From NCBI GenBank assembly GCA_029256105.1, contig JAQSYO010000012.1:1-64000 (forward strand): DNA of 64,000 nt, in the 5' to 3' direction. Position 1 is the first letter of the stretch. Every line of letters starts with the position of its first letter. The stretch is from Herbinix sp. Lineage in GTDB: Bacteria; Bacillota; Clostridia; Lachnospirales; Lachnospiraceae. A model generated the notes under the pieces. That model saw nothing but the letters and a program-made list of their open reading frames with translations. It did not search any database and was not told where the DNA came from. Made by a program: the position numbers and the translations under genes. Of this stretch, positions 12,190 to 47,895 are shown piece by piece.

Positions 12190-12307
12190 TACATTCCCTC
12201 CCAAAAAACCTAGTCATATAGAATATATCGGCAATTAAAATGGATTTAATTAGTTTAATTACCTATAATTTTAAATGTAATTTTTGGCACTTTTGTGTCA
12301 ATATAGT

Positions 12308-12351
12308 AAGAAAAATGGGAATGTCGGAAAGAGTTCTCCGGCATTCCCATC
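12308..12351 (-). terminator. Terminator of the metal-ATPase operon
   Basis: On the minus strand GATGGGAATGCCGG pairs with CCGACATTCCCAT around a short loop and is followed by TTTTT. It begins 3 nt after the ATPase stop codon. Confidence 0.88.
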
Positions 12352-12353
12352 TT

Positions 12354-22046: not shown

Positions 22047-22164
22047 ATTGATTCCATGCCTTTCGTTGTTTATTCTTATCCCTAAAAGTAACTATATTTA
22101 ACTATCTATTTTCATTAGCATTTAATTTCTATTTTCATTACAAATAACATTTTAGATTTTTAAA

Positions 22165-23061: not shown

Positions 23062-23160
23062 ATTTTTGTCCCTCCATTATTATGAATATGGTCAATTCAT
23101 TGCTAATTCCTTATAAAATAAAAAAACAGCTTTATTCCTTATTCTTTATTACTATAGCTA

Positions 23161-23300
23161 AATCCATATTAATGTAGCTTGATCCTTATTTATGTAGCTT
23201 GATCCTTATTAATTTAGCTTGATCCTTATTAATATAGATTGATCCTTATTTATTTATCTTGATCCTTTTAAAATAGTGTAATCCTTATTAATATAGCTTT
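23161..23300. repeat. 20-bp tandem repeat between iolE and iolD
   Basis: Seven head-to-tail units of 20 bp, consensus GATCCTTATTAATATAGCTT (one unit each at 23161, 23181, 23201, 23221, 23241, 23261, and a shifted one at 23281). The central four differ by 1-4 bases. There are no unique spacers, so it is not CRISPR. On the transcribed strand each unit carries AAGGATC. It lies inside the iol operon, directly after the iolD stop. Confidence 0.92.
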
Positions 23301-23304
23301 ATCA

Positions 23305-25236: not shown

Positions 25237-25254
25237 CGTAGCTCCTCCTTCATA

Positions 25255-26019: not shown

Positions 26020-26088
26020 AATTACACCTCCCATAAATATTGGCGAGCATTCTTCTGACAGATAATTTTCTTGCCTGTCTATACAAGA

Positions 26089-27105: not shown

Positions 27106-27109
27106 CACA

Positions 27110-27958: not shown

Positions 27959-28036
27959 ATATACACTCACCTTTCTTCCTTTTTGAGGAACATATTAGCT
28001 CCTTTCGCAGGAACTTATTTATAACTTATTAATCAT

Positions 28037-28083
28037 TTAACAATAAGTTAACATATATATCATCATTAGTCAATTAAAATCAA
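28037..28083 (-). promoter_or_regulatory. iolJ operon promoter and candidate operator
   Basis: On the minus strand TTGATT (28078-28083), an 18-bp spacer and TATATA (28054-28059). Just downstream, CTTATTGTTA (28038-28047) lies within the palindrome TTAAC-aataa-GTTAA (28037-28051). The same 10-mer occurs immediately downstream of the iolG -10 element, so it is the best operator candidate for the adjacent DeoR-type regulator. Confidence 0.55.
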
Positions 28084-28148
28084 ATTTTTTAGTGCGTATT
28101 ATTAGCATATAACAACGAATTAATAGTATTTTATAGTAAAGTTAATAA

Positions 28149-28195
28149 AAGCTCCTTAATTCAAAAGTATAAGTGTTATACTGAACTAGGAGCTT
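28149..28195 (-). terminator. Terminator of the DeoR-type regulator gene
   Basis: On the minus strand TAAGCTCCT-a-GTTCA pairs with TGAATT-AAGGAGCTT, followed by TTATTAA. It lies about 50 nt after the regulator stop and separates it from the iolJ promoter. Confidence 0.7.
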
Positions 28196-28241
28196 ATATA
28201 GTCTTTTCTGTATATTGAATAGGAATGCAACCTTTATTGTA

Positions 28242-29021
28242 TTATATTTCGTCCGTTATTTGCGCTATCATGACTTCTACTTTCTTTTTCTCACATAGAT
28301 CAAGCAGTTGTGTATCTACATAACTGTCAACGATAACTTTACTCAAATCAGATACATTTGCATAAGTGAGCATACCACTCTTCCCATACTTTGAAGAATC
28401 AATTAGTAGATATACTTCTTTGCATTTCGCAATCGCTGCCTTTTTTATCTCATACTCCAGTGGTGATGCATTTGTCACCATACCATTTACATCAATACCG
28501 GAAGAAGCCATAAAAACTTTTTTAATATTATATCGCTCTAAGGTGCGGATTGTATCTGCTGAAACAAAGGAATTTGTTTTTCTTTCAAGGGTACCTGGTA
28601 AACATATCACATTAATATCCGGTAAGGATATTGCTCGATTAATTGCATTCAGATTATTGGTTAATACGGTAACATTCTTACATTCTCCCATATAATCCAC
28701 CATATACATGGTTGTTGTCCCTGAATCGATATAAATGATATCACCATCTTCAACTAGTGATGCTGCCGCTCTACCTACTGATTTCTTCCCTTGGATATTC
28801 TTGTTTTGCCTTTCATCAAACGGAATAAGACTCCCCTTTTGATTACTGCATACGCCGCCATAAACCTTTCGAATAATACCCTTACTCACGAGTTGTGCGA
28901 CATCCAAACGAACGGTATTCATTGATATATCAAAGGTAGTACGCAATTCTTCCATAGACACCAAATCATGTGCTAATATATACTCTTCCATTTGTTTAAT
29001 ACGAAATGATTTCATCCCCAT
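28242..29021 (-). CDS. iolR: DeoR-family transcriptional regulator, probable IolR
   Basis: 259 residues from ATG 29021, with GGAGG 8 nt upstream. Residues 1-60 are a DeoR-type winged helix (QMEEYILAHDLVSMEELRTTFDISMNTVRLDVAQLVSKGIIRKVYGGV). The remainder is the DeoR sugar-phosphate sensor with IYIDSGTTTMYM and the NNLNAI/GTLERKTNSF motifs. In Bacillus, IolR of this family represses iol genes until 2-deoxy-5-keto-gluconate 6-phosphate accumulates. Position between the iolJ operon and iolG strongly suggests the same job. The symbol is inferred from context. Confidence 0.88.
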   Translation of the reverse strand: MGMKSFRIKQMEEYILAHDLVSMEELRTTFDISMNTVRLDVAQLVSKGIIRKVYGGVCSNQKGSLIPFDERQNKNIQGKKSVGRAAASLVEDGDIIYIDSGTTTMYMVDYMGECKNVTVLTNNLNAINRAISLPDINVICLPGTLERKTNSFVSADTIRTLERYNIKKVFMASSGIDVNGMVTNASPLEYEIKKAAIAKCKEVYLLIDSSKYGKSGMLTYANVSDLSKVIVDSYVDTQLLDLCEKKKVEVMIAQITDEI

Positions 29022-29202
29022 TAAGCTATCCTCCATTTACTTTTGATCCTTAGTTATAATAAACACTAATATAACCAACATGTTTTAGCAAGTATTTTCT
29101 AATTCTTTCGCAAATTTAATTATATCTTACCATATTTCACATATAAATCAATACATGACAATATAATTTGTTATATTTTTAATATATTCTTGTTAATTCT
29201 TA

Positions 29203-29248
29203 TTGATGTTCTAAGATTATTATGCTATAATCTTATTGTTATTAACAA
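29203..29248 (+). promoter_or_regulatory. iolG promoter with operator-like palindrome
   Basis: TTGATG (29203-29208), a 17-bp spacer and a perfect TATAAT (29226-29231) form a strong SigA-type promoter. CTTATTGTTA (29232-29241) follows directly and TTGTTA-T-TAACAA (29236-29248) is a perfect palindrome, well placed to block initiation. Confidence 0.72.
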
Positions 29249-29282
29249 AAACATACCAATTTAAACGAAAGGATATGAAAAT

Positions 29283-30296
29283 ATGTTAAATATCGGTATT
29301 ATTGGCGCTGGAAGAATCGGTAAAGTCCATGCGGAAAGTATTACTTATCATGTAAAGGAGGCTAGGGTTGCTGCTATTGCGGATCCTTTCATGAATGAAG
29401 CAACGATTTCGTGGGCTACTAGCTTAGGTATTCAAAAGGTAACGACGAACTATCAGGATATTTTAAATGACAATAACATTGATGCTGTGTTGATTTGTTC
29501 CTCTACAGATACTCACGCTGATATCGCAATTGAAGCTATAAAAGCAAATAAACATGTCTTCTGTGAAAAACCTATTTCTCAGGATTTATCTAAAATTAAA
29601 GCAGTTATGGACGCACTAAAGAGTTCTAATGTAAAATTCCAAGTTGGGTTTAATCGTCGTTTTGATCATAACTTTGAGGCAGTACATGCTGCAGTTGCAG
29701 CTGGTACAATTGGTGATGTACATATTGTTAAGGTAACCTCTAGAGATCCTGATGCTCCACCCGTGGAGTATGTAAAAGTATCCGGTGGTATGTTCTTAGA
29801 CATGACGATTCATGATTTTGATATGGTTCGTTATTTAACTTCTAGCGATGTGGTTGAAGTTTATGCCAATGGCACTTCCTTAGTAAACCCTGCAATCAAA
29901 GAGGCTGGCGACATCGATACCGCAATCATCACAATGAAGCTTGCAAATGGTGCCCTTGCTGTAATTGATAACTCTCGTAAGGCAGAGTATGGATATGATC
30001 AACGTGCGGAAGTATTTGGTTCAAAAGGTCAAGTTGCAGTTACAAATGATTCAAATTCTACTGCTGTAATTAGTACCGCCTCCGGTGTGGCTGGTGAAAA
30101 ACCGTTATATTTCTTCTTAGAACGTTATATGGCTTCCTTCTCGAAAGAGGTCTCATTATTTGTGCAGGCAGTTATTCATAATACCGATGTTCCGGTTAAT
30201 ATAAATGACGGTTTACAGCCCGTTCTTATTGCGAAAGCAGCAAAAAAATCCTTGGATGAAAATCGTCCGGTTTTGCTTTCGGAAATCATTATGTAA
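29283..30296 (+). CDS. iolG: myo-Inositol 2-dehydrogenase IolG
   Basis: 337 residues, Gfo/Idh/MocA family. N-terminal Rossmann fold LNIGIIGAGRIGKVHAESI, the catalytic-lysine motif HVFCEKPIS near residue 96, NRRFDHNF, and the active-site GGMFLDMTIHDFDMVRYL with the conserved Asp/His pair. It oxidises myo-inositol (or scyllo/D-chiro isomers) to 2-keto-inositol with NAD+, the first step of the pathway completed by the minus-strand iol genes. It has its own strong promoter and a perfect terminator, so it is monocistronic and divergent from the regulator. AAAGGAT lies about 8 nt before the ATG. Confidence 0.93.
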   Translation: MLNIGIIGAGRIGKVHAESITYHVKEARVAAIADPFMNEATISWATSLGIQKVTTNYQDILNDNNIDAVLICSSTDTHADIAIEAIKANKHVFCEKPISQDLSKIKAVMDALKSSNVKFQVGFNRRFDHNFEAVHAAVAAGTIGDVHIVKVTSRDPDAPPVEYVKVSGGMFLDMTIHDFDMVRYLTSSDVVEVYANGTSLVNPAIKEAGDIDTAIITMKLANGALAVIDNSRKAEYGYDQRAEVFGSKGQVAVTNDSNSTAVISTASGVAGEKPLYFFLERYMASFSKEVSLFVQAVIHNTDVPVNINDGLQPVLIAKAAKKSLDENRPVLLSEIIM

Positions 30297-31265: not shown

Positions 31266-33449
31266 TTAGATCGCTACGATATGAATTAATTTACCCAGAT
31301 AATCTCCCCACATATTTGCAATGTTGATTCCTGCGTACATTAAAGCTCCACCGCTAAGTTCTTCACCCGTTTCTTCAATTCGGTATATCGTGTCTTTTAA
31401 TAGCCCCTTTAGGTAAACTCTTCTTGTTCGATAATTTGGCCGTGCCGATACTTGTATATACGTAATCAGTGCTTCTTTTCCATCCTTTGATACCACACCA
31501 TAACAATCATATTCGTGATTATCATGATAAGAAGCAATGCGATAATAATTACCATTACGCACCAAATCATTATATTTATGATACATTGCTACCTGCTCCG
31601 GAATCATATCCCTATCTTCCTTTGGAATCTTAGTGATATCCAGTTCGTATCCAAACGTTCCAGCAAGCGCTACATAGCCTCTTGTTGAAAAAGGAGTACT
31701 TCTTCCGTTGGAATGACTCGGACAATCAGCAATATGTGATCCCATAGAAGATAGCGGGTAGATAAGAGCAGTTCCTTCTTGTATTCTTAAGCGCTCAATT
31801 GCATCCGTATCATCCGAGCACCAGATTTGAGGGCTGTAATATAGCATACCGGGATCAAATCTTCCTCCACCACTGGAACAGTTTTCAAGTAGTATATGGG
31901 GAAAATCGTGTGTGAGTCGTTCTTGTAATTCATATAAGCCAAGCACATAACGATGGTATAGTTCTCCCTGTCTATCCTCTGCAAGACAAATGCTTCCAAG
32001 ATCAGTAAGAGCACGGTTCATATCCCATTTAACATATTCAATATTCGCATCGGTTAGTATCTTGGATAAACTGCAATAGATGGCATCCCGAACTTCTTTT
32101 CTGGAGATATCAAGAACAAGTTGATTTCTTGCTAATGCGCCGGTACGGCCAGCTATCTGAATGGCATAGTCCGGATGAGCACGGTATAAGTCTGAATCCG
32201 GGGAAATCATCTCTGGTTCGAACCAGATACCTAATTTCATACCCAACTTGTTTACTTCTTCCGTAAGGTGTTTTAGCCCACCCTTTATTTTATTTTCATT
32301 TACTACCCAGTCACCTAGTGCGCAATTATCATCATTTCTTGTGCCAAACCACCCATCATCAATGACAAGCATCTCGATACCAACTTTGGAGGCTTCTTCG
32401 GCTATACTTAGTAATTTATCCGTATCAAAGTCAAAATAGGTTGCTTCCCAGTTATTAATCAATATCGGACGTTTTTTGTCCTTATATTCTCCACGGATTA
32501 AGTGATTACGGTATAAATCATGATAGGTTCTTGTCATACCGCCAATTCCCTCAGAGGAATAAACAAGCACCACTTCCGGAGCAGTAAAAGACTCTCCCGT
32601 CTCTAATTTCCAAGAAAAATCAACCGAATTAATTCCGATTGCTGTCCTGAGCATATTGAATTGAGTAATCTCTGCTTGAGCCATAAAATTACCGGAGTAT
32701 ACCAAATTAAGACCAAATACTTCACCTTGATCCTCATTGGCATCCGGTTCTAAAATGGCCATAAAAGGCTGCTCCTGATGGGAGGATACGCCACGCAAGG
32801 AGGATATCATCTGTTTCCCATCGGTAATCCTTTTTCGGTTAATCATACGTTCCTTCGACCAAAGACCATATAATGTCAGCATATCAAAATCTTTATTATC
32901 CATATCCAGGCACGCCGATAATACTTTCGTTAAATAGATTGCTTCCTTCGAAACATTCACAACTCGAACACTTCTTGCGATTACATCCAAGGCTTCAAAT
33001 ACGGTATATACCAATACAATCCGAAGCTGTAGGCTCTTATCCTCACAGGTTAATTCCAAAGTAGTGCAATCTTTCTCATCGCCAAAGGTCGCCGGGAGGT
33101 CTTGAAGCAACGGTTTTCCCTTATAAATCTCGTGCGATACATAGGATAAGCTGCAAGCCGAATGGCCGGACTTTGTTTTCACACTAAGGCAGGACTCACG
33201 AAAATCTCCAATTCCATGTGTTGAAAATTCCATAGGTAAGGAGTCCATAAATGACACCCTATCTCTATTGTTTTTCGATGGTACAATTTCCTCGCTACGC
33301 ATTAAATAGCGCATGTCCGTATCGATAATGGTTTTACCATAATAGATGTGACCAATAAAATTTTCTTCATCCACAATACCGATCATATAAGTAGATTTTG
33401 GTGTGTCAAGTTTAAAGACACGATTCTTTTCATAATATTGAATTCCCAT
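31266..33449 (-). CDS. Alpha-galactosidase, glycoside hydrolase family 36
   Basis: 727 residues from ATG 33449 (MGIQYYEKN), with GGAGG 5 nt upstream. Domain order is the GH36 one: N-terminal beta-supersandwich (~1-320), (beta/alpha)8 barrel (~330-640) and a C-terminal beta-domain. The nucleophile is D476 (YVKWDMNR) and the acid/base D546 (WCSDDTDA), a spacing of 70 as in the Geobacillus AgaA enzyme. VIDDGWFGTRNDD and ENCSSGGGRFDPGMLYY are also diagnostic. No signal peptide, so it is cytoplasmic and acts on imported alpha-galactosides (raffinose, melibiose or galactinol type). It is the distal gene of the transporter/glycosidase series. Confidence 0.95.
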   Translation of the reverse strand: MGIQYYEKNRVFKLDTPKSTYMIGIVDEENFIGHIYYGKTIIDTDMRYLMRSEEIVPSKNNRDRVSFMDSLPMEFSTHGIGDFRESCLSVKTKSGHSACSLSYVSHEIYKGKPLLQDLPATFGDEKDCTTLELTCEDKSLQLRIVLVYTVFEALDVIARSVRVVNVSKEAIYLTKVLSACLDMDNKDFDMLTLYGLWSKERMINRKRITDGKQMISSLRGVSSHQEQPFMAILEPDANEDQGEVFGLNLVYSGNFMAQAEITQFNMLRTAIGINSVDFSWKLETGESFTAPEVVLVYSSEGIGGMTRTYHDLYRNHLIRGEYKDKKRPILINNWEATYFDFDTDKLLSIAEEASKVGIEMLVIDDGWFGTRNDDNCALGDWVVNENKIKGGLKHLTEEVNKLGMKLGIWFEPEMISPDSDLYRAHPDYAIQIAGRTGALARNQLVLDISRKEVRDAIYCSLSKILTDANIEYVKWDMNRALTDLGSICLAEDRQGELYHRYVLGLYELQERLTHDFPHILLENCSSGGGRFDPGMLYYSPQIWCSDDTDAIERLRIQEGTALIYPLSSMGSHIADCPSHSNGRSTPFSTRGYVALAGTFGYELDITKIPKEDRDMIPEQVAMYHKYNDLVRNGNYYRIASYHDNHEYDCYGVVSKDGKEALITYIQVSARPNYRTRRVYLKGLLKDTIYRIEETGEELSGGALMYAGINIANMWGDYLGKLIHIVAI

Positions 33450-33547
33450 TGCAACCTCCATTTAATTACTATCTCACCTACACAAGTTTGAGTAAGAATA
33501 GTCAATTATGTTTATACAATACACTTACTCGTTCCAAAGGGATTATC

Positions 33548-34378
33548 CTAGATTTCGATTGACATACCATCGTAAGAAACAAGGAAACCATATTTATCCG
33601 CTTCAGTAACCATTTGGTCATGAAGCCAAAGTCCATTATGGGAAAAATGATTTACAACCCATACCGTGTTCTCATCCCCAAGTCCAAGCTCCGTCAGACG
33701 TTGTTTTTCCTTAACCGCATCAATTAATCCCATGTGATTTTTCCCATCCGGCTCGCTTTGCGTTGTGCAATCCAAGCTTACCAAATCAAGATGAACCTTA
33801 TTTGCTTTCAAATATTCAATGGTTTGTTCCGGAAATGCTCCTGTATCGTGTGCATAAAGTATCGTTTTACCATCCTGGGTAACTTGATAAAATAAACACT
33901 CTTCCTTTTTATCATGTAAAGCTAAAAGCGGAACGACAATATAATCTTTTATGGCGATAGGTTGAAAGGGTTCAGCATAATGAAATTTGAATTTGGATTT
34001 ATCTTCTCCCTCCTCAACACCAGGAACATCCATCCATATTTTTTCCTTCACTCTGTTGTTACCATAGACTTGAAAGATATTCGGTCTTTCGTGAGCAAAG
34101 GGATCTCGTAACAATTCGATCTCTGATGCATTAAAATGGTCCGAATGACTATGTGTTACCAAAAGGTTATCAACGGTACTAAGATCAAGCCCATAAACTA
34201 TACAATGCATATTGGTATCCGGTGTAAGATCAATTAATAGATCCTCATTAATCAAAGCTTGAGACCTTGTTCTTATATTTTTCCCTTTTAAATCTCGAGC
34301 AGCTTTGCATAAATCACAATTGCAAAACAAACCCGGCCAACCCTCTCCGGCTGCCGTTCCATAATAAGTTAATTTCAA
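33548..34378 (-). CDS. PhnP-like metallo-beta-lactamase-fold phosphodiesterase
   Basis: 276 residues. The MBL signature is H76-S-H78-S-D80-H81 (THSHSDHF), with YAHDTG and a C-terminal VVNHFSHNG. An N-terminal C19-N-C21-x2-C24 cluster with the GTxxxxGxPxxxCNCxxC arrangement is the extra zinc site of PhnP-type proteins, which hydrolyse 5-phosphoribosyl 1,2-cyclic phosphate in phosphonate breakdown. No phn genes are near, so here the substrate may be another cyclic phosphodiester from sugar or inositol metabolism (inference). It lies between a GH38-like gene and the alpha-galactosidase gene, same strand. Confidence 0.75.
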   Translation of the reverse strand: MKLTYYGTAAGEGWPGLFCNCDLCKAARDLKGKNIRTRSQALINEDLLIDLTPDTNMHCIVYGLDLSTVDNLLVTHSHSDHFNASEIELLRDPFAHERPNIFQVYGNNRVKEKIWMDVPGVEEGEDKSKFKFHYAEPFQPIAIKDYIVVPLLALHDKKEECLFYQVTQDGKTILYAHDTGAFPEQTIEYLKANKVHLDLVSLDCTTQSEPDGKNHMGLIDAVKEKQRLTELGLGDENTVWVVNHFSHNGLWLHDQMVTEADKYGFLVSYDGMSIEI

Positions 34379-34499: not shown

Positions 34500-37025
34500 T
34501 TAAACCTTTTTTGTTAGAAGAAATGAATAAATTCCATATGGTTTCACATGAAAAGCATGTTCGTCTAAAGAGATTATTCCATCAACTCTATTCATTAAGT
34601 CAATCGGTGTGATCGAATAATTATTTATATGGAATTTTCTCCATGCCTCTTCTCCTAAAAGATCTTTAAATCTTAATATGATATTACCATCCTCTACTCT
34701 CGCGTTAATTAATTGCATATGTTCAGGGAATATACCAAACTCTTTGGTTAATTGATTTCCCGTAAGTTCAATACCTTCTTTTATCATTACTGCTTTTTCC
34801 AAGTTAAGGACTTCTTGCTCTTTATCATATCCGAACAACACATAACGATAACATAGGTCTCCACCAATCCATTGAGGAAAATTCGTTCCCCACATATTAT
34901 TGAACAGATTGAAATACATAACTGGTTCTACCGGAGTTTTATATTCTTTCAAATATTTATAAATTCCAGTGTCACCTAGCGAAACCAGAGGAGAATCCTT
35001 CGATACCACACATATTCCATTCTGATTTCCCATAGCAGAGATATAATTTTCCAAGCAATAAAACACGTGATTTGCGTCTTCTTGAATGTCATTCGCTGGA
35101 TCTAATACTACATTCGCTTTATTTATGAGATAGTGGGGTGAATTCTCCGCTAAGGGAATTAGGAAGGAGCCTGATTCTATGTATGGGGTTTCCTTTTTAT
35201 TCTTTAACCTCAAATTAACATATAATTCGTCCCCAGCTGGTGGCAAGGTCACCTCTATCGTAATCTGCTCAGCATCTCCATATTTCTCGACACTCTCCGT
35301 ATTTACATAGCGGAAAATAACAGTATCATTTTCAATTGAAAAGGATTGATACGTCGGGTTATAAGTTTTATGTTCACATTCCGGATAAGCTTCTCTTCCA
35401 TAATCTTGAACTCCCCAGGTAGAAAAGCGATATGCATAATCTTTTAAGTAGGTTGTTATCTCACTAATTCCATATCGATCATATTGATAAGAAAAGATTG
35501 ATTTTTGATTGCATTGTTTTAATACAACTGCATTCATTTTCTTATCATATAATTGTACGATATCACCGGTAATCTCCGAAAACCTCATGGAATAACGATG
35601 ATTCTCAATCGTAACAAAATTATCCATTCTTTTTATTGCAAGCTTTCCCTTCGGGGAATAGGTATCAACAATACGAAAGGGGATTGTGATAAACGAAGGT
35701 ATTTTCTTTACAAAACAAGCCCATTCTCCATCTATTTTCGTGATTTGAAGTATCTCGTTATTCATTTCTATAGCACAATCGGTAAAGTCTCGGTTCAAAT
35801 CTTTGAGTGATACCCAACCGGTAAATTCACTGCTATTAGGATTAAACATGGAGCTTACAGAATTACTTTTACTTTCCACCAGTAATTTCAACTCTTGAAC
35901 GGCAAGATCACTTTGGTACACTCTATCTCTCTGCTCCTGCCAGGAAGCCTCCATAAATTGATAGTTCTTTGCACTTTTTTCCTTTAAAAAATCCTTCTTA
36001 CGATACACACGGTCTTTGCCAAGCCACGTTTTTACATCCGCACCCCAGGTATGCTCCTCAAACAGACTGACCTCTTCGTAATACCGATTTAGTATCTCAG
36101 CAGCTTGATCCGTCTTATGTTCAGAATTCTCCAAATATTGTTTTGCTACCATCGCTTGAAGTCTTTTGCTTTTTTCTCTTTCCTCTCGAATTTTGCCAAC
36201 TTCCGCCGGATAGGAGCCAATCCCGTGAATCCAAGTATCCGCCAAATCCTTTGTTATCGTAGGAAGATCCTTTAAGTCACACTTTGATAAATCATTATAG
36301 AAATCATCCATAGTACCACATACGATTTCTGCCTCAGGATATTTTTTCTGTATGCGTTTCACCAAACTTTCAATCACTTCAACTGATTGAGGACCACAAT
36401 TATCTTGTGTCTGCATCAAGGCCATCCACACTGGATAATCCCAATCTTCAGGAGGAAGCAGCGAAGTTCCATATCCACCCTTGCTATACATTGTCAACAC
36501 ACGCTCACCACTTACCGCCTGCCAATGAAACAGGAAGGGCAGCTTTGGTGGATTGGCAAATTCATTACATCCAAGATGCAGAAATTTCACTCCTGCTCCG
36601 CTTAAAATAGCCGGCAGCATGATCCCATGCCCTGGAACATCCGTCATTTTAGCAGAAATTGAATAAGGTTTTTGATAGACATTCGAGAGTTCTCGTCCGA
36701 AACGAAGACCCTCAATATATTCCTCCGCACTGCAAAAATCGGTATGGGAGGTAAATGGTAACGCATGCCATACAATTTGACCTCGTGTTATTAATAAGTC
36801 CAGTTCGTTTTTCAAGTCTGCACTGCATCGCTCCGTTATTATCTTAAGAGGCCATGCCGGCATAGTCCATACATATTGCAGCTTGCCCATATGTTGCGTT
36901 GCTTTGCAGGTGGCGATTACCTCTTTTAACATTGAATTAGCATAATTATCAATTACCCTTGAGGATAAATCGGTAAATCCAATATCAAAATGTGTTTTAA
37001 ATACAAGTATTATTTTCTTAACCAT
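34500..37025 (-). CDS. Divergent GH38-fold (alpha-mannosidase-like, DUF5054-type) protein
   Basis: 841 residues from ATG 37025 (MVKKIILVFKTHFDIGFTDL), with GAGAGG 5 nt upstream. H12-x-D14 matches the metal-binding HxD of family 38 alpha-mannosidases, and D129 (AKMTDVPGHGIMLP) lines up with the GH38 nucleophile position (compare WLPDTFGYSASLP in the mannosidase at 47896). FEEHTWGADVKTWLG provides a conserved histidine. The C-terminal half (~400-841) is beta-rich as in GH38. I recall the arrangement as Pfam DUF5054, which I could not check. No signal peptide. Probably a cytoplasmic glycosidase on imported oligosaccharide; its sugar specificity is unknown. Confidence 0.7.
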   Translation of the reverse strand: MVKKIILVFKTHFDIGFTDLSSRVIDNYANSMLKEVIATCKATQHMGKLQYVWTMPAWPLKIITERCSADLKNELDLLITRGQIVWHALPFTSHTDFCSAEEYIEGLRFGRELSNVYQKPYSISAKMTDVPGHGIMLPAILSGAGVKFLHLGCNEFANPPKLPFLFHWQAVSGERVLTMYSKGGYGTSLLPPEDWDYPVWMALMQTQDNCGPQSVEVIESLVKRIQKKYPEAEIVCGTMDDFYNDLSKCDLKDLPTITKDLADTWIHGIGSYPAEVGKIREEREKSKRLQAMVAKQYLENSEHKTDQAAEILNRYYEEVSLFEEHTWGADVKTWLGKDRVYRKKDFLKEKSAKNYQFMEASWQEQRDRVYQSDLAVQELKLLVESKSNSVSSMFNPNSSEFTGWVSLKDLNRDFTDCAIEMNNEILQITKIDGEWACFVKKIPSFITIPFRIVDTYSPKGKLAIKRMDNFVTIENHRYSMRFSEITGDIVQLYDKKMNAVVLKQCNQKSIFSYQYDRYGISEITTYLKDYAYRFSTWGVQDYGREAYPECEHKTYNPTYQSFSIENDTVIFRYVNTESVEKYGDAEQITIEVTLPPAGDELYVNLRLKNKKETPYIESGSFLIPLAENSPHYLINKANVVLDPANDIQEDANHVFYCLENYISAMGNQNGICVVSKDSPLVSLGDTGIYKYLKEYKTPVEPVMYFNLFNNMWGTNFPQWIGGDLCYRYVLFGYDKEQEVLNLEKAVMIKEGIELTGNQLTKEFGIFPEHMQLINARVEDGNIILRFKDLLGEEAWRKFHINNYSITPIDLMNRVDGIISLDEHAFHVKPYGIYSFLLTKKV

Positions 37026-37142
37026 AGGAACCTCTCTTTTCACTTCTTTATCTTTTCTCTTTCTGACATGGTTCATATCGTAATATTACGAAGATATTGT
37101 TTCCTTTGGCCTATCTGTCAAATGTATTTAGATGGTCTGGGC

Positions 37143-37802
37143 TTATAACAAACCCAAACCCTTTAGCAATTTGTTAATTCTTCCGGGAATAATTACAACA
37201 AGCTCTTCCCAGGACACAATAATATTCTCCTCATATGGCACCAGATAAAATTCATGTTTTGGTTCAAAAGAAAACTGTTCTCTGATATAGGAGCACACTT
37301 GATAATCTATGTACGAATTTTTCATTATCAAGCCTTTAAACATATCCTTCACCAATAAACCATCAATTCCTGCCAGCTTATTACAAGAGGCTTCATATTC
37401 ACCGAACAACTTAAATAAATTTCCATCCGGAAACATAGCATGCTTCCCTGGCTGTACATAAATTGGCAAATGGGTCTCATCCTCGATAGCCCTCGTATAA
37501 CGATAACAATTCATATAGGATCCGTGTGCGCTTGCTTCACCATCACACACTTTGCCTTCATGGTCAACATATACCCAAAAATGTTCCAAATCGTACATAT
37601 GCTGAATGTCATAATCATAATAAAGCTGATATTCAATCACAAAAGAAACCTTTTCTTCCTCAATCCAAATATCACGATCAAAGGATGGACTTCTTTGGGA
37701 CTTGTGAAGCACACTGTATCCAATCTGATCGATTGAAAACGGTTCGTTTTTATCAAAATAAAGATGTGGTGCATACATTATTGCTAATTCTTTATCTGTC
37801 AT
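37143..37802 (-). CDS. Unrecognised 219-residue protein with His/Asp-rich conserved-looking core
   Basis: I do not recognise this family. The sequence starts MTDKELAIMYAPHLYFDKNEPFSIDQIGYSVLHKSQRSPSFDR. The core is YDYDIQHMYDLEHFWVYVDHEGKVCDGEASAHGSYMNCYRY followed by PIYVQPGKHAMFPDGN. The pattern acidic-LEHFWVYVD ... AHGSY ... VQPGKHAMF vaguely resembles the Vps62/DUF946 and NPP1 folds, which place His/Asp residues in similar loops. No signal peptide or membrane segment. It starts 16 nt after the HAD gene, inside the operon, so it probably acts on the same substrate. Confidence 0.65.
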   Translation of the reverse strand: MTDKELAIMYAPHLYFDKNEPFSIDQIGYSVLHKSQRSPSFDRDIWIEEEKVSFVIEYQLYYDYDIQHMYDLEHFWVYVDHEGKVCDGEASAHGSYMNCYRYTRAIEDETHLPIYVQPGKHAMFPDGNLFKLFGEYEASCNKLAGIDGLLVKDMFKGLIMKNSYIDYQVCSYIREQFSFEPKHEFYLVPYEENIIVSWEELVVIIPGRINKLLKGLGLL

Positions 37803-37818
37803 TTATACCTCCGTGTAC

Positions 37819-38385
37819 TTACGAATTTTTCACTAAGGATTTTGTCAAGATTAACCTGTTTTTGTACTGTAGATCCAATTGCTCCAGCAAATCATACAGC
37901 TCGGTAGGCTTTGCTGCTACGTAGTCTGGTGTTTCTTCTTCTTTTTCCGGCTGCATTACATAGCGCGGGCTGCAACTAAGTAAAATCGAGGTAATCCCTA
38001 TTCTATTAGCTCCTACAATATCTCTTTTGATATTGTTTCCAATCATAACAATGCGGGGTTTATCACATTCCTTTAGTCCTAACTCCTTCATCGCATGCAA
38101 AAACATTATCTCGGAAGGTTTTTCATAACCTAATTCTCCGGAAATTGCCTTGGCAGCAAAACAATAGTCCAAACCATTTTCGGTATAGATATTGTCAAAG
38201 GATGTTTTTGTTCCGTCTGCTACCAAGGCAATGGTATATCCGCTTTGATGCAGTTTTACCAGTGTCTCGCCAGCTCCTTCCAGCATTTTCGCATGAAGGA
38301 CTGTTCCATTTTCATCTTTTATCTCGGTAGATTCATCGACAATGGTATCTCCACTGTCAATAAATACGATCAGATCTTTTCTCAT
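37819..38385 (-). CDS. HAD-superfamily hydrolase (probable sugar/polyol phosphatase)
   Basis: 188 residues. Motif I is F-I-D10-S-G-D-T14, motif II-like VADGTKTS, motif III lysine in LGYEKPS and motif IV GNNIKRDIVGANRIGITSILL. In the standard DxDxT motif the second Asp (two residues after the nucleophile) is the acid/base, but here that position is Gly and the Asp is one residue later. The cap is small. A phosphatase acting on a phosphorylated sugar released by the neighbouring enzymes is the likely role. It follows oppF by 39 nt. Confidence 0.75.
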   Translation of the reverse strand: MRKDLIVFIDSGDTIVDESTEIKDENGTVLHAKMLEGAGETLVKLHQSGYTIALVADGTKTSFDNIYTENGLDYCFAAKAISGELGYEKPSEIMFLHAMKELGLKECDKPRIVMIGNNIKRDIVGANRIGITSILLSCSPRYVMQPEKEEETPDYVAAKPTELYDLLEQLDLQYKNRLILTKSLVKNS

Positions 38386-38424: not shown

Positions 38425-39417
38425 CTATTCATGTACAATGCCAACCAGCTTCAATTCATCTGCTCTATGGCATGCCACAAGATGTCCCGGCTCCTTTTCT
38501 ATAAATTCAACCTCGTCGGTTTTACATTTGTCGATGCAATATTGGCATCTCGTGTGAAAAAAACATCCTGATGGAGGATTCGCTGGATTAGGTATCTCTC
38601 CTTGCAGCGGAATGCGCTCCATTATAATTGTAGGATCCGCAATTGGTACTGCTGATAATAACGCTTGGGTATAGGGATGAAGTGGAGATTTAAATAACTG
38701 TTCCGAAGACGTGTATTCCACCATCTTACCAAGATACATTACTCCAACTTTATCCGATATATGCTCAATAACAGATAAATCATGGCTTATAAATAGATAG
38801 GTTAATTGCAATTCCTCTTGCAAGTCCTTAAGTAAATTAACAACCTGAGCTTGCACCGAAACGTCAAGTGCAGATACCGCCTCATCACACACGATCAAAC
38901 GCGGATAGAGCACCAATGCTCTGGCGATTCCAATCCTTTGCCTCTGTCCACCCGAAAAAGCATGTGGGTAACGTTTTAGGTAACTGGGATTTAACCCCAC
39001 CTTAACAGCAATGCTTTTCACTCGCTCTTCAATTTCCTTCTTCGTAAGCTTGTAATTTGCTTTCAAGGGTTCTGATATAATATCAAAAACCGTCATACGT
39101 GGATCCAAGGAAGAAAACGGGTCCTGAAATATCATTTGTATTTCTTTTCTCACGGTTTTCATTTCTTTTTGATCAATTTTTTGTAAATCATATTCATTTC
39201 CGTCTTCTGCCAAATAGAGTACTTCGCCTTCTGTCGCTTCGATAGCACGGACAATACAGCGTCCAAGCGTCGTCTTGCCACAACCAGACTCCCCAACGAT
39301 ACCAACGGTTTCGCCTCTTTTTACTTCGAAGCTAACCTTATTAACCGCTTTCACATTCACTTTTTTTGAGGAGAATGTCTTGCTCATTTCCTTAATCTTT
39401 AAAATTGTCTCCGGCAT
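38425..39417 (-). CDS. Opp/Dpp-type ABC transporter ATP-binding protein (OppF-like)
   Basis: 330 residues. Walker A GESGCGKTT, Q-loop IFQDPFSSLDPRMTV, signature FSGGQRQRIGIARAL, Walker B LIVCDEAVSALDVSVQAQ, H-loop FISHDLSVIEHI. The C-terminal oligopeptide extension with the iron-sulfur-type cysteine cluster (GCFFHTRCQYCIDKC) is complete. It pairs with the next ATPase to energise uptake. Glycosidase neighbours and a GntR/LacI sugar-type regulator suggest the cargo is oligosaccharide rather than peptide. Confidence 0.93.
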   Translation of the reverse strand: MPETILKIKEMSKTFSSKKVNVKAVNKVSFEVKRGETVGIVGESGCGKTTLGRCIVRAIEATEGEVLYLAEDGNEYDLQKIDQKEMKTVRKEIQMIFQDPFSSLDPRMTVFDIISEPLKANYKLTKKEIEERVKSIAVKVGLNPSYLKRYPHAFSGGQRQRIGIARALVLYPRLIVCDEAVSALDVSVQAQVVNLLKDLQEELQLTYLFISHDLSVIEHISDKVGVMYLGKMVEYTSSEQLFKSPLHPYTQALLSAVPIADPTIIMERIPLQGEIPNPANPPSGCFFHTRCQYCIDKCKTDEVEFIEKEPGHLVACHRADELKLVGIVHE

Positions 39418-39429
39418 AACAAACCCTCC

Positions 39430-40440
39430 TTACTTGCTATTTTGCTTTAATAATGATGGCAGATCCCGATAACAGGCAACGAAATGTCCTTCTTCTACTT
39501 CTCTCAGACAAGGTTCCGCAGCACTACATATCTCTGTATCACGGTAGATACAACGATCATAAAAACTACATTTATTCTCTAAATTCATAGCCAGTGGTAC
39601 CGTGCCTTCAATCGAGAATAAACGCTCGTGTCCACCACCTATTTTATGGACCGATCCTAGTAAACCAATGGTATAGGGATGCAATGGATTCTTGAAGATA
39701 TCTTTTACCGGCGCTATCTCAACAATTTTACCTAGGTACATAACAGCTACTCTGTCACAAATCCTTGCAACAGTGCCCAGATCATGTGTGATATACAGAA
39801 TCGCCATGTTATATTCCTTTTGAAGTTGTTTCATCAATTCCAGAATTTGTGCTTGGATAGTTACATCCAAAGCTGTTGTAGGCTCATCCGCAATTAGAAG
39901 CTTTGGATTACAAATCAGCGCCATTGCAATCAATGCTCTTTGTAACATACCACCGGAGAACTCGTGAGGATATTGATTAAATCTCTTTTCCGGATTGGCA
40001 ATACCAACCCTGCGCATCGCTTCAATCGAAATCTCTTTTGCCTTTTTCTTATCCTTGGTAATATGTATCCGTACAAATTCAGATATCTGATGACCGATCG
40101 TAAAAAGTGGAGAAAACGAACTCATTGGCTCTTGAAATATCATGGAAACACTCTTTCCTCTGATACTTCTAATTTCCGTTCCACCAAATTTCATTTCCAG
40201 TAGATTTCTTGATTCACCTTCCTCGATAAAATTGATTTTACCCGTTGTAATACATTTCTTGTCATTAATTCCCATAATCGCTTTACTGGTTAAACTTTTA
40301 CCGCAGCCGGATTCTCCCACTAGACCAAGGGTTTCATTTTCGCGGATTGCAAAGCTTATGTCACGCACTGGGGTAAGTATACCTTCATCCAGTTTAATTT
40401 CTATTTTCAGATTCTCAACTACAACCACGTTATTTTCCAT
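39430..40440 (-). CDS. Opp/Dpp-type ABC transporter ATP-binding protein (OppD-like)
   Basis: 336 residues. Walker A GESGCGKSLTSKAIMG, Q-loop MIFQEPMSSFSPLFTIG, signature FSGGMLQRALIAMAL, Walker B LLIADEPTTALDVTIQAQ, and the C-terminal cysteine extension (CSFYDRCIYRDTEIC). Partner of the OppF-like ATPase, 12 nt from it and 12 nt from the upstream permease gene, so tightly operonic. Confidence 0.93.
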   Translation of the reverse strand: MENNVVVVENLKIEIKLDEGILTPVRDISFAIRENETLGLVGESGCGKSLTSKAIMGINDKKCITTGKINFIEEGESRNLLEMKFGGTEIRSIRGKSVSMIFQEPMSSFSPLFTIGHQISEFVRIHITKDKKKAKEISIEAMRRVGIANPEKRFNQYPHEFSGGMLQRALIAMALICNPKLLIADEPTTALDVTIQAQILELMKQLQKEYNMAILYITHDLGTVARICDRVAVMYLGKIVEIAPVKDIFKNPLHPYTIGLLGSVHKIGGGHERLFSIEGTVPLAMNLENKCSFYDRCIYRDTEICSAAEPCLREVEEGHFVACYRDLPSLLKQNSK

Positions 40441-40452: not shown

Positions 40453-41646
40453 CTACTTATATGGGTCTGCAGCATCACGCAAACCATCGCCTAAAAAGTT
40501 AAATGCCAAAACTGCAACTACAACGTACAAAACCGGTATCAGCTTCCATGGACAGTTCGCAATATTACTGATACTTTGGCATTCTTGGAGTAAAACACCC
40601 CAACTGGTAGCTGGTGCACGCATACCCAACCCAAGAAAACTCATGGAAGTTTCACCTAAAATCATATTTGGTATACCTAAGGTCAAGCTCACAATCAGAT
40701 AACTCATAAATCCCGGTACCAAATGCTTTGTAATTATCTTGATGTCGGAAACTCCTGCGAGCTTTGCCGCCATGACATAATCTTCTTTCTTAAGTGATAA
40801 AAATTTACTTCGAACTGTTCTCGCTAAACTTGGCCAGCTTAGTAATGACATAATGATGGTAATGAACACAAAAACCTTTGTTACAGAAATACCAGCCGGG
40901 ATAGCTGCCGATAGTGCCATCCATAACGGCAATGTCGGGAATGACGAGATTACCTCAATAATTCTTTGTACCACCATATCAATTACGCCGCCATAATATC
41001 CGGATAAACCGCCAATAATGATCGCCAGTATAAAAGATATTACAGTTCCCAAAAGCGGGACTGTCAAGGAAACTTGACTACCAATTAAAATTCTCGAAAA
41101 TAAGTCACGACCCAATTTATCAGAACCAAAAACCATGAGACTGACCGGATCCTTACCCTCGGGTAAATTAGAATTGTCTACTCCAAATAGATGGAGATTA
41201 CTTTTGATTAGGCCCAAAAATTTATAAGAACTACCCTTTACGAAGAAGTCTATCGGGTAGGTTTGATCTTTATTCTCTTCAAACTTTTTATTTTGAAATT
41301 TGTCATAGGTTACATCATAATGATAAACGAATGGACCTACAAATTCGCCATCATGTACAAAATGAATTTTACTCGGCGGCGCGTTTGAATATGTTGCAGA
41401 ATAATCTTCTAATCCTTGTGGAGCAATAAAATTACCAAAGATAACTCCTAAATATAAAATGGCTAATAAAATAAAACTTATCACCGCCAACTTGTGTCTC
41501 AAAAGTTTGCGTCCCATCAACTGCCACTGAGAGGACATATAATATTTTTCCTGTTTTGCTCTCTTTTTTTCCAATTTTCGATTTTCTTTTTCTTCGTAAG
41601 TGGATTTTTTAAGAGCAGAACGTAATGTTTGTTCGTCTCGGCTCAT
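40453..41646 (-). CDS. Opp-type ABC transporter permease (OppC-like)
   Basis: 397 residues. A charged N-terminal extension of ~55 residues precedes TM1 (~50-75). A large loop of ~100 residues (~75-185) follows, then the BPD_transp_1 core of five helices with the EAA motif (MAAKLAGVSDIKIITKHLVPGFMSYL). The final helices contain GETSMSFLGLGMRAPATSWGVLLQECQS, typical of OppC/DppC. Its start codon overlaps the stop of the partner permease by one base. Confidence 0.9.
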   Translation of the reverse strand: MSRDEQTLRSALKKSTYEEKENRKLEKKRAKQEKYYMSSQWQLMGRKLLRHKLAVISFILLAILYLGVIFGNFIAPQGLEDYSATYSNAPPSKIHFVHDGEFVGPFVYHYDVTYDKFQNKKFEENKDQTYPIDFFVKGSSYKFLGLIKSNLHLFGVDNSNLPEGKDPVSLMVFGSDKLGRDLFSRILIGSQVSLTVPLLGTVISFILAIIIGGLSGYYGGVIDMVVQRIIEVISSFPTLPLWMALSAAIPAGISVTKVFVFITIIMSLLSWPSLARTVRSKFLSLKKEDYVMAAKLAGVSDIKIITKHLVPGFMSYLIVSLTLGIPNMILGETSMSFLGLGMRAPATSWGVLLQECQSISNIANCPWKLIPVLYVVVAVLAFNFLGDGLRDAADPYK

Positions 41647-42641
41647 TATTTACTTTCCTCCAGATATTTAATCCTTGGATCTAACACTGCCAGTAGCAAA
41701 TCGGAAATCAGCGTACCTGATACTACCAGTATCGCAGAGATCAATAACATGCCGCCTGAAAGATATACATCCTGTGATTGCAGTGCCTTGAGTAATATCG
41801 GACCCTGCGTCGGAAGCATCAGCACAATTGCAGTGATGGTCGAGCCATTAAATACACCCGAAATCATAGGTCCCAATCCACTAACGACCGGGTTAAGAAC
41901 CGCTCGCATTTCATACTTATAGGTTATTGTTTTTTCACTTACACCTTTTGCTCTTGTACACAATACATAGGGGCGTTCCTGTTCATCCAGCATTTGTGCA
42001 CGAATACTACGGATAAGTCCGCAGGTTCCAGACATACTGATCACGATGACCGGGATAACCAATTTTGATAGAAATTCCAAAAACGAAGACCAGGAGTGAA
42101 TACCACCTTCAGGAAACAGTCCCATCAGCGGTTTGCCAAACCATTTGTAGGATAGGAACATCAAAACGATTGCTAGTAAAAAGTGTGGAACCGCCATACC
42201 GATAAACCCAACGAAGGTATAGATATAATCACTTATTTGATACTGATGCTTCGCGGCATGTATCGCTATCGGAATGGAAATTGCATAAGTTACAACCAAA
42301 GTAATTAAGGAAATCATTAGTGTTGCACCGAGAGTCTCACCGATTTTTACTAACACACTTTGATTATAGTAGAACGAAACACCCCAGTCTCCTGTTGCGA
42401 TACCCTTAAGCCAATCCCAATATTGCACCAAAAATGGTTGGTCCACATGATACATTGCTCTTAAATTTGCTATGTCAGTTTGAGTTACCGTTTCTCCCTG
42501 CGCAACCATATTGTTCACTATGTTATCTACAAAGTCACCCGGAGGAAGCTGTATCACAAAAAACACAACGAATGTTATCATCAGCAATGTGAAAAAGGCT
42601 AAAATCAGCCTCTTACCAATATAGCTCCATTTATCATTCAT
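41646..42641 (-). CDS. Opp-type ABC transporter permease (OppB-like)
   Basis: 331 residues with six membrane helices and the usual OppB/DppB features: N-terminal RLILAFFTLLMITFVVFFVIQLPPGDFVDNIV, MSLITLVVTYAISIPIAIHAA, and the EAA loop CTRAKGVSEKTITYKYEMRAVLNPVV. It is the first of four genes in the membrane/ATPase block, preceded by the binding-protein gene and a strong hairpin. Confidence 0.92.
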   Translation of the reverse strand: MNDKWSYIGKRLILAFFTLLMITFVVFFVIQLPPGDFVDNIVNNMVAQGETVTQTDIANLRAMYHVDQPFLVQYWDWLKGIATGDWGVSFYYNQSVLVKIGETLGATLMISLITLVVTYAISIPIAIHAAKHQYQISDYIYTFVGFIGMAVPHFLLAIVLMFLSYKWFGKPLMGLFPEGGIHSWSSFLEFLSKLVIPVIVISMSGTCGLIRSIRAQMLDEQERPYVLCTRAKGVSEKTITYKYEMRAVLNPVVSGLGPMISGVFNGSTITAIVLMLPTQGPILLKALQSQDVYLSGGMLLISAILVVSGTLISDLLLAVLDPRIKYLEESK

Positions 42642-42754: not shown

Positions 42755-44857
42755 TTATTTTGCTAAATATAACTGTTCCGGACGCATCATGCTTACAAAT
42801 CTGTATTCGTCTGCATTGATAATGTTCGAAGGGAAGTTCTTTACATTATTATTAACAACCCAATTCACAGGTAATGGTGAAAGGAAACCAATAACCCAAA
42901 TATTATTCTTATGAAGATCATAAATCTTTTGAACATTCTCTGCCACTACCTGATCTCTCGTTGCACCTGAAGCTGTCTTTATCGCATCATAAGCATTGAT
43001 GAGTTCTAACATATCGCCAGTAGGTTCAATTCCGCCATTTGTAGTAGTCTTGCCATCCTCATACCATTTGCCATATGCACCATACCAGCAAGAGAAATTA
43101 CGCATCGGAACAATTGCATCAGGACGAATAGCAGGTGTTGATACACTTAATTTTGTAAAAACTGCTTCAACATCATTCGTAAGTATGGATTGTGGTTGTT
43201 CTGCATCCACTTTATCGGTTATTTTAACACCGATTGCTTTGTATGCAGACTGAAGCATTGCGATCCAATCGCCTTGAATAGATACATCACTATCTTTAAT
43301 ATTAATTATAATCTCAACATCTTTACTTGTGCCTTTCATCTTACGGTAAGTACCATCAGTACCATCCCAAGGCTCTGTTATTTCATCCAATAAGCTATTT
43401 GCTTTTGCTACGTCAAACTCTGTCCACTTATTCTGCCATTCAGCGTCATAACCAAAAGCGCCTTCCGGAACTGAAGCCTGTGCTGGCTTAGATTGATTGT
43501 TAAACAAAGTAGCGTTTACTAGATTTCTATCAACACTGATGGAAAGTGCTTCTCTGAAGCGAATATCCTGAAATAAAGCTCGCTTGTCCAAATCTTTCAC
43601 TGTCTGACATAAATCCAAGGACATATCATTGGACCAGTCAGTTGATATCCATTGCACCGGTGTATGTGTAGCTTGCGTTGCAGTTACAACGGTTGCATAA
43701 TCTGCAGGTTCCACTGTTGATAAATCAATCTCACCAGCAGTTTGCTTTAAAACTTTTTGATCATTATCATTGACAATTACGAATTTAAGGCTGTCAAGAT
43801 AAGGCAATTGACGTCCTTCGCTATCTGTCTTAAAGAAATAAGGATTTCTTACCAACTCATAGGTCTCGCCAACTGTATTCCAATTATCTTTCACTGCGAT
43901 AAAGCTTCTTACTTGAGGAACGATTGCATAATCCCAATTGTAATAACCGATATCCTTGCCCATGGTGCTATAATCTTCCCAGACTTTACCAAAGTCTGTA
44001 TTTGCATTTGCAATAGCCTGTTCTTCTGTAATAAGAGGGAAAGTCGGGTCATCTGCTACACCGTCTTTACGTGCAACATAATTTATGTAGAAATGTTTTG
44101 GTAGAAACATCCATTTATTATCTACCGCAACTGCAACCGGGAAATCTGGCTTCGGTGCTGCGAAAGTTACTGTAAAGGTGGTCTCATCTACTTTATCGAA
44201 CTTTGCCCAATAGCTCTTACCATCTTTCAATACTTGGTAGCAATTGTAAGGCTTTGAGGTATATGCTGGATAATAGCCTTCTGCATCTACCGCTACCGCT
44301 GTACGATCTTCATTCAATGCAGGTGTTGATACATGATCATAATAGAATATAACATCATCAACTGTAAAAGGTTCTCCATCCGACCACTTCATGCCTTCTC
44401 GAAGCTCAATGGTCCAAACAGTTGAATCTTCATTCGGATAAAAGTCCTTCGCAACGTTTGGTTCAACTTGACCAGAACCATCTTGTTTGAAACGGAAGAT
44501 ACCCTGCTCTGTAAAAGGTCCCCATCCCCAACGCGCTTGGTCATTTTGTAAATTTGTAATACTGCCACCATATTCACCAAGTGACATTACATCTGTTTCA
44601 ATCATTACATCATCTGCAACAGGGATACGTTCTGCCAATGCAGGAAGTGTTCCTGCAGCAACTTGTTCTGCTAACATCGGAGCTTCCTTCGCATCTGCAT
44701 CCGTAGTGCTTCCACCTGCATCTGTATCCGTATTCTCTCCCGCAGCTTTGGTTGGTGATGTAGTTTCATTTCCATCCTTTGTCGAATCTTTACCACATCC
44801 CGACAACATACTAATGACAAGAACTACTGATAGTATGAGTGCTACTACTTTTTTCAT
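42755..44857 (-). CDS. Family 5 extracellular solute-binding lipoprotein (Opp/Dpp type)
   Basis: 700 residues, long for the family. Lipoprotein signal peptide KKVVALILSVVLVISMLSGCGKD, with Cys21 as the lipidation site, followed by a Thr/Asp/Ala-rich linker of ~35 residues. Residues ~75-700 are an SBP_bac_5 domain (GPFTEQGIFRFKQDGSGQVEPNVAKDFYPNEDSTVWTIELREGMKWSDGEPFTVDDVIFYYDH; FREALSISVDRNLVNATLFNNQSKPAQASVPEGAFGYD). Related large binding proteins in Thermotoga and Lachnospiraceae bind oligosaccharides (established for several), which fits the glycosidases here. AAGGAGG precedes the ATG. A promoter is predicted at 45086-45114. Confidence 0.92.
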   Translation of the reverse strand: MKKVVALILSVVLVISMLSGCGKDSTKDGNETTSPTKAAGENTDTDAGGSTTDADAKEAPMLAEQVAAGTLPALAERIPVADDVMIETDVMSLGEYGGSITNLQNDQARWGWGPFTEQGIFRFKQDGSGQVEPNVAKDFYPNEDSTVWTIELREGMKWSDGEPFTVDDVIFYYDHVSTPALNEDRTAVAVDAEGYYPAYTSKPYNCYQVLKDGKSYWAKFDKVDETTFTVTFAAPKPDFPVAVAVDNKWMFLPKHFYINYVARKDGVADDPTFPLITEEQAIANANTDFGKVWEDYSTMGKDIGYYNWDYAIVPQVRSFIAVKDNWNTVGETYELVRNPYFFKTDSEGRQLPYLDSLKFVIVNDNDQKVLKQTAGEIDLSTVEPADYATVVTATQATHTPVQWISTDWSNDMSLDLCQTVKDLDKRALFQDIRFREALSISVDRNLVNATLFNNQSKPAQASVPEGAFGYDAEWQNKWTEFDVAKANSLLDEITEPWDGTDGTYRKMKGTSKDVEIIINIKDSDVSIQGDWIAMLQSAYKAIGVKITDKVDAEQPQSILTNDVEAVFTKLSVSTPAIRPDAIVPMRNFSCWYGAYGKWYEDGKTTTNGGIEPTGDMLELINAYDAIKTASGATRDQVVAENVQKIYDLHKNNIWVIGFLSPLPVNWVVNNNVKNFPSNIINADEYRFVSMMRPEQLYLAK

Positions 44858-45373: not shown

Positions 45374-46468
45374 TTACTGTTGACCATTAACGAGTATCGC
45401 TGGTACCATAAAATCAGTTTCCGCAGTTGTACCATTAATCTGTGATAGCAATAATCCGACAATTTTTCTCGCCATTTCAACTTCATTCTGCTTCATATGT
45501 GTAATATCAAGCTCTTCCGGACCATCTACACAGCAAATCTTAATTTTCTCGCCAACCTCAGCCGATGTTCTTTTTGAAGCTTCCAGGATGGTAGACATCA
45601 GACTATATTCGGCACATACAATCCCATCGATCTCGTCTTTATGTTTATTTAAAAATTTTACTACGTTTTCAATATTTTCATCAACTGGTGGATGCTCATA
45701 TATATTCTCATCAAAGACTAATGCACATTCTGGTACGGTTGCAATAGAAAATTCGCTTGCCGCTTCATAAAAACCACTTTTTCTTTCTTGCAAGGAAGAA
45801 GTACCAATTATTTCGGAAGATATAAATCCCAAATTTCTGCAGCCTTGTTCCCAAAGATGTCTTACTAAGGTTTTTATAGCTTGTTTATTATCCGTTCTGA
45901 CTGACGGAACAGATATTCCCTCTAGCTTCTTGTCGATTACTACTACCGGAAAACCCTCTAATATCAATTTTAGGATTTTTGGATTATAATATACGCCATG
46001 ACAAGGCATAACAATAAGTCCGGCTATCTTTGATTTTACCAAGAAATCAATTTCTTCCGTCTCTTTATCTCTATTATAATAAGAAAACCTCATAATCGTT
46101 TTATAACCGTTCTCTTCTGCCATGCGATCAATTTTATAAAGCAAATCCAAGCCAAAAGAACTCGATACATGTTCCATAACCAGACCAATTTTTTTTACTA
46201 CGGGGCCGGAATTTTCTTCTACCGTTTCAGAAAAGGAGGTGCGTTCTTTCACAAAGGTTCCTACTCCAGGTATTCTTTGAAGTAAGCCATCATCTCTCAA
46301 CATGCTTAATGCTTTTTTGACCGTAATCATGCTAACGCCAAACTTATTTTTGAGTTCGTCGTCCGAGGGTATTTTCGTCCCTTCACCATAGACGCCTTCC
46401 TCTATTTTGTTTTTTAAATCTTCATATAATTGCATATATAAAAAATTGTCTCTGGCCAAGATTCGCAC
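45374..46468 (-). CDS. GntR-type winged helix fused to LacI-type sugar sensor (AraR-like architecture)
   Basis: 364 residues. Residues 1-75 are a GntR winged helix (LYEDLKNKIEEGVYGEGTKIPSDDELKNKFGVSMITVKKALSMLRDDGLLQRIPGVGTFV). Residues ~95-364 are a periplasmic-binding-protein/LacI effector domain (KKIGLVMEHVSSSFGLDLLYKI, IDFLVKSKIAGLIVMPCHG, VRTDNKQAIKTLVRHLWEQGCRNLGFISS). This architecture is that of AraR and relatives, which release DNA on binding a sugar. It is the last gene of the operon with the mannosidase and MFS genes and lies next to the Opp promoter, so it probably controls both. Confidence 0.9.
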   Translation of the reverse strand: MRILARDNFLYMQLYEDLKNKIEEGVYGEGTKIPSDDELKNKFGVSMITVKKALSMLRDDGLLQRIPGVGTFVKERTSFSETVEENSGPVVKKIGLVMEHVSSSFGLDLLYKIDRMAEENGYKTIMRFSYYNRDKETEEIDFLVKSKIAGLIVMPCHGVYYNPKILKLILEGFPVVVIDKKLEGISVPSVRTDNKQAIKTLVRHLWEQGCRNLGFISSEIIGTSSLQERKSGFYEAASEFSIATVPECALVFDENIYEHPPVDENIENVVKFLNKHKDEIDGIVCAEYSLMSTILEASKRTSAEVGEKIKICCVDGPEELDITHMKQNEVEMARKIVGLLLSQINGTTAETDFMVPAILVNGQQ

Positions 46469-47892: not shown

Positions 47893-47895
47893 CGT

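Follow-up and report, generated by a model that had tools for sequence, protein, structure and literature searches.

The 841-residue DUF5054 protein described here, encoded in a 64,000-nucleotide stretch of a Herbinix sp. contig (JAQSYO010000012.1; hereafter, the window), is best read as a cytosolic, zinc-dependent, retaining exo-alpha-glycosidase with a GH38 fold, which would act on an imported, possibly phosphorylated oligosaccharide (probability about 0.64). The data show the fold, the conserved residues and the gene linkage, while we infer the zinc, the chemistry, the order of steps and the phosphorylated substrate. A preliminary description of this DNA had proposed a second, highly diverged GH38-fold protein, likely of an under-characterised glycosidase group; this claim holds in substance, and the recurrent cassette in which the gene was found is a new element beyond it. 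Pfam assigns no function to DUF5054, and the combination of a GH38 fold, an intact metal site, an altered -1 pocket and a cassette gives a short, testable list of substrates.

The gene and its start

The plus strand of 34500-37025 carried stops throughout, and the frame for 841 residues ran on the minus strand, from 37025 to 34500 (Table 1); the preliminary description had given no strand. Relatives start at the residue equal to the 37025 start, and an alternative in-frame ATG at 37076, which would give 858 residues, was without a GAGAGG-type site. In the AlphaFold2 model the first barrel strand comprised residues 4-10, in agreement with the earlier statement that the protein starts directly with the catalytic fold and lacks the N-terminal domain of the classical mannosidase at 47896. 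As residue 4 already lies in this strand, a signal sequence has no space, and the protein is probably cytosolic.

Table 1. Positions of the cassette genes and of the active-site residues of the DUF5054 protein in the window
Feature	Position	Strand	Remarks
GH36, melibiase-type alpha-galactosidase	31266..33461	minus	also in L054, L059, L063
PhnP-like metallo-beta-lactamase-fold (MBL) hydrolase	33548..34378	minus	adjoins the DUF5054 gene in L052, L061 and L063 as well; fragment in L059
GH38-fold DUF5054 protein, 841 aa	34500..37025	minus	residue 4 opens the catalytic fold; probably cytosolic
E324-H325-T326-W327-G328	36042..36056	minus	H325, fourth metal ligand (dGMII H471); T326 at dGMII D472 position
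D208, predicted acid/base	36402..36404	minus	profile pairs D208-N209 with dGMII D340-D341
Y185, invariant	36471..36473	minus	possibly the SpAms1 Y460 equivalent, from order only (PMC7609781)
D129, predicted nucleophile and metal ligand	36639..36641	minus	dGMII D204
H12-F13-D14 metal motif	36984..36992	minus	dGMII H90, D92
Ribosome-binding-like site GAGAGG	37031..37036	minus	5 bases before start codon at 37025; read directly
219-aa protein, weak NLP-like fold match	37143..37802	minus	relative fused to DUF5054 C terminus in L055
HAD-like hydrolase, non-canonical motifs	37819..38385	minus	linked in 10/18 loci
ABC transporter ATPase, OppF-like	38425..39417	minus	
ABC transporter ATPase, OppD-like	39430..40440	minus	
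ABC permease, OppC-like	40453..41646	minus	
ABC permease, OppB-like	41646..42641	minus	
SBP_bac_5 family solute-binding protein of importer	42755..44857	minus	
GntR/LacI-type regulator	45374..46468	minus	recurrent with cassette

Fold and family

Comparison with the GH38 and DUF5054 models, as proposed in the preliminary description, placed the protein in DUF5054 (PF16477; 57.4 bits against a curated cut-off of 37.6, E 3e-15), while Glyco_hydro_38N (PF01074) scored 23.2 bits, just under its cut-off of 25, and reached 27.4 bits only when pieces were summed in a genome search; Glyco_hydro_38C and 38C2 matched weakly. The DUF5054 model leaves out the barrel, spanning just what follows it, and has no function attached. 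A search of the PDB with the single sequence returned no relative, and it was the profile search alone that gave matches: a profile of 15 relatives matched Drosophila Golgi mannosidase II (dGMII, PDB 1qwu, E 2.4e-7). A profile-profile comparison with two GH38 proteins gave a probability of 97.6%.

The AlphaFold2 model, built from an alignment of 28 sequences taken from the window and fetched loci, was confident (pLDDT 92.2, pTM 0.93). When compared with the PDB by Foldseek, its best 40 matches were all GH38 alpha-mannosidases, nearly full length (best E 6.5e-35, TM 0.68). By model and Foldseek, then, the GH38 fold is present, with its alpha/beta barrel, helix bundle and beta domains. Since the -1 Trp and Asp of GH38 are replaced (see below) and the Glyco_hydro_38N score falls under its cut-off, we file the protein as a DUF5054 family member with a GH38 fold, not as a proven member of GH38; it represents a GH38-fold subgroup, probably with a different -1 specificity. 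The group is indeed under-characterised, as had been supposed: it keeps the fold, ligands and nucleophile and passes the DUF5054 cut-off, no paper in the collection searched names DUF5054 or PF16477, and searches for a new GH38-like family and for PHP/CehA yielded nothing relevant.

Active site

The preliminary description had placed H12-x-D14 and D129 at the GH38 metal and nucleophile positions and added the His of an HTWG motif, which is H325. In the profile of 15 relatives, H12, D14, D129 and H325 align with the four zinc ligands of dGMII (H90, D92, D204 and H471). Profile alignment and the near full-length fold match together indicate that the four residues would meet at one metal. Among 28 relatives of 18-67% identity, all four are invariant, as are Y185, D208, N209, D263, W265, E324, T326, W327 and G328. 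For the four residues, invariance and alignment together go far beyond chance. Retention of the catalytic residues is not what one expects of a pseudoenzyme, and this possibility was rejected on their invariance.

In the acid/base region, D208 is invariant and in the right place, at the position of Ams1 D493. The profile, however, puts D208 on dGMII D340 and N209 on D341 (the dGMII acid/base), so that D208 is a predicted acid/base and N209 might take this part instead. In Ams1 the zinc ligands are H290, D292, D402 and H615, with D402 the nucleophile and D493 the acid/base, and the sugar is contacted by W295, Y460 and D616 (PMC7609781). The ligands and nucleophile are kept in the DUF5054 protein, but W295 is replaced by F/Y17 and D616 by T326, so that a GH38 mechanism is likely while the -1 sugar contacts, as aligned, would differ. 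The same holds against dGMII, whose -1 contacts W95 and D472 are F/Y17 and T326 in 28 of 28 relatives (F17 and T326 in the window protein). These replacements lend indirect support to the specificity of its own that had been proposed for the group, and they make plain terminal alpha-mannose improbable as the -1 sugar.

Relatives and distribution

Close relatives (group 1) were rare: with a threshold of E<=1e-100, the order yielded them in four genomes out of 392, own genome counted, and 14 group-1 loci came from the public genome collection. The own genome carries a 67% paralogue on another contig (C33, locus L035), and the motifs recur in two further groups that are less closely related. Viral contigs were searched and gave no relative of the DUF5054 protein. 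Glyco_hydro_38N matched at ten places in the whole own genome, which is thus rich in GH38-fold enzymes.

A recurrent cassette

The recurrent partners of the DUF5054 gene lie at 31-46 kb of the window and comprise an ABC importer, HAD, MBL, GH36, the 219-aa protein and a GntR/LacI-type regulator. Group-1 loci were compared by six-frame searches (18 loci, window included), and 16 of the 18 carried either a HAD gene (10: the window, L052, L053, L054, L055, L057, L059, L060, L061 and L063) or a CehA/McbA-type PHP metallohydrolase gene (6: L035, L036, L056, L058, L064 and L065), never both; L062 and L071 (39% identical) were without either. The gene was mostly directly upstream of that for DUF5054, the PHP gene of L035 lying about 5 kb downstream. 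On the tree, HAD and PHP need three changes each, of which well-supported branches force at least two, and the two types thus interchange at least twice. That the two are mutually exclusive and have been repeatedly exchanged suggests that they serve the same step, most simply phosphate removal.

Other partners were more restricted. The PhnP-like MBL gene co-occurs with HAD in four loci, one of them the window, and as a fragment in L059, where the match (12283-12690) covers 50 residues and then runs directly into GH36, so the gene is cut off or the contig misassembled there. The 219-aa protein co-occurs with HAD in four loci, besides the fusion to the DUF5054 protein in L055; GH36 was found in four loci, and importer genes, of SBP5/Opp or CUT1 type, were usual. 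Across 14 control loci (213 kb), taken from GH38-like groups at greater distance, there was no HAD, no MBL and no 219-aa protein, and only one partial PHP match and one GH36.

Four relatives of the MBL protein retain its metal motifs (THSHSDH, AHDTG, NHFSH and a His after the first of these), with HxHxDH and the further His/Asp ligands present, but against the PhnP equivalog model the protein scored 56.5 bits with a cut-off of 272, and is therefore PhnP-like, not PhnP. In all relatives the HAD motifs depart from the canonical, as DxGDT (Gly at D+2), VADG (Ala in motif II) and GNNxxRD (Asn in motif IV), and the protein may be a specialised HAD or no phosphatase. The 219-aa family matched no Pfam or NCBIfam model; its residues H68, D71, E73, H74, H93 and H121 are invariant, and its best fold matches in the PDB were nearly all NLPs, at a probability of 0.99 but E 3.5e-3 and TM 0.32 (NLP sequence profile, E 0.31).

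Sugar loci carry members of the 219-aa family whether or not they have a DUF5054 gene (the window; L055:12521-13171, fused; L085-L089). The same genome encodes a paralogue 40% identical to the PhnP-like MBL (L105:1538-2431), which adjoins a gene that by eye resembles an ADP-ribosylglycohydrolase, a second glycosidase pairing with this MBL type. The 67% paralogue in L035 (10894-20000) sits in the other type of cassette, with a CUT1 importer and PHP, and adjoins a GH1 6-phospho-beta-glucosidase-like gene.

Surroundings of the cassette

The preliminary description had put both GH38-type proteins in the same locus. Both are in the window, but the gene at 47896 is about 11 kb from the DUF5054 gene and adjoins an MFS gene of its own (46528); a single operon of the two was considered and ruled out on these grounds. 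It encodes a classical Ams1-class GH38 enzyme whose catalytic domain is preceded by about 250 residues, in part a jelly roll like that of Ams1, and which keeps both -1 residues (W265 and D579). In this pair (window 46528-51000) the MFS transporter has organophosphate antiporters (PgtP/GlpT) as relatives, a hint that the substrate may be phosphorylated or acidic here as well.

On the other side of the cassette (20544-30296) is a myo-inositol cluster with an iolA-like dehydrogenase, iolE, iolD, iolB, iolC, an aldolase, a DeoR regulator and iolG. Anaerocolumna sedimenticola (L052) has the same order, which the other loci do not show. An inositol-phosphate glycan was considered as substrate and rejected, as among the loci read the iol cluster was adjacent only in these two; since they share gene order, the adjacency may be inherited order only.

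Proposed function and alternatives

The substrate would enter via the SBP5/Opp ABC importer encoded next to the gene. As in GH38, a zinc ion bound by H12, D14, D129 and H325 would chelate two adjacent hydroxyl groups on the -1 sugar, and D129 would attack C1 to form a glycosyl-enzyme, with D208 presumably acting as acid first and base second, until water frees the sugar with its configuration retained. GH36 would take off alpha-galactose, and HAD with the PhnP-like MBL (PHP in other genomes) would take off phosphate or open a phosphodiester. The -1 sugar is likely one with a cis-diol, a modified mannose, lyxose or similar, and the presence of GH36 suggests alpha-galactose in the substrate.

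In L056 a gene for a D-lyxose/D-mannose isomerase overlaps the end of the DUF5054 gene, and in the L061 cassette a separate GH38 relative of mannosylglycerate hydrolase lies beside it; these point to a mannose-like sugar, although the cases are few and the isomerase link is from a single locus. Taken further, the cassette may encode the breakdown of a phosphorylated or phosphodiester-containing alpha-glycoside by a pathway not described before, with a DUF5054 enzyme specialised for that substrate and two interchangeable routes of phosphate removal (HAD with or without the PhnP-like MBL, or a single PHP), a proposal that we regard as tentative and less likely than not. Phosphate is here read from the enzyme families only, and the PHP and MBL families include hydrolases of esters, amides and lactones as well. 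If the link to phosphate is true, it would be a route for gut, rumen and digester Clostridia to use phosphorylated glycans.

An unlikely but serious alternative is an ordinary, diverged alpha-mannosidase acting on imported oligosaccharides, with HAD, PHP and MBL as general scavenging enzymes. The entire fold and metal site are as in GH38, which such an enzyme would share, and the isomerase pairing in L056 and the GH38-type genes near the DUF5054 gene in L057 and L061 would suit it; yet none of the 28 relatives retains the counterparts of W95 and D472, the Glyco_hydro_38N cut-off is not reached, and the linkage to HAD or PHP is too regular for unrelated genes. We consider it improbable that the protein is a transferase or phosphorylase-like enzyme that moves a glycosyl group to phosphate or another sugar on the same fold: GH57 4-alpha-glucanotransferases were the next Foldseek matches after GH38, enzymes of phospho-ester families adjoin and the -1 pocket is altered, but the GH57 match was far weaker (E 2e-13 against 7e-35) and no phosphate-binding motif was identified in the protein. 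A non-catalytic GH38-fold protein, such as a sensor or binding subunit, is very improbable, for despite the low similarity to characterised enzymes and the fruitless single-sequence search, the metal ligands, nucleophile and D208 do not vary even in relatives as little as 18% identical.

Comparison with known systems

The exo-alpha-glycosidase reading can be set against several known systems. With the GH38 alpha-mannosidases (dGMII, Streptococcus pyogenes SpGH38, PDB 2wyi, and Schizosaccharomyces pombe Ams1), the DUF5054 protein shares the fold over nearly its full length, the zinc ligands, the nucleophile and an Asp in the acid/base region, but at about 10% identity and with W95 and D472 of dGMII replaced; the Ams1 class, moreover, has an N-terminal domain where the DUF5054 protein has none. 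MngB, the GH38 mannosylglycerate hydrolase, is cytosolic and acts on a 6-phosphorylated mannoside. It is a GH38-fold enzyme like the DUF5054 protein, although the latter gave no match to the MngB model, and the MngB relative of the L061 cassette is a separate gene.

In the C-P lyase pathway, some genomes use other enzymes in place of the MBL phosphodiesterase PhnP, and phnPP offers an alternative route (PMC10574752, PMC8774927). The exchange of HAD/MBL and PHP in the DUF5054 cassette resembles this replacement. The cassette showed no C-P lyase genes, however, and its PHP is of CehA/McbA type, matching the phosphoribosyl cyclic phosphate model only weakly (E 0.0057).
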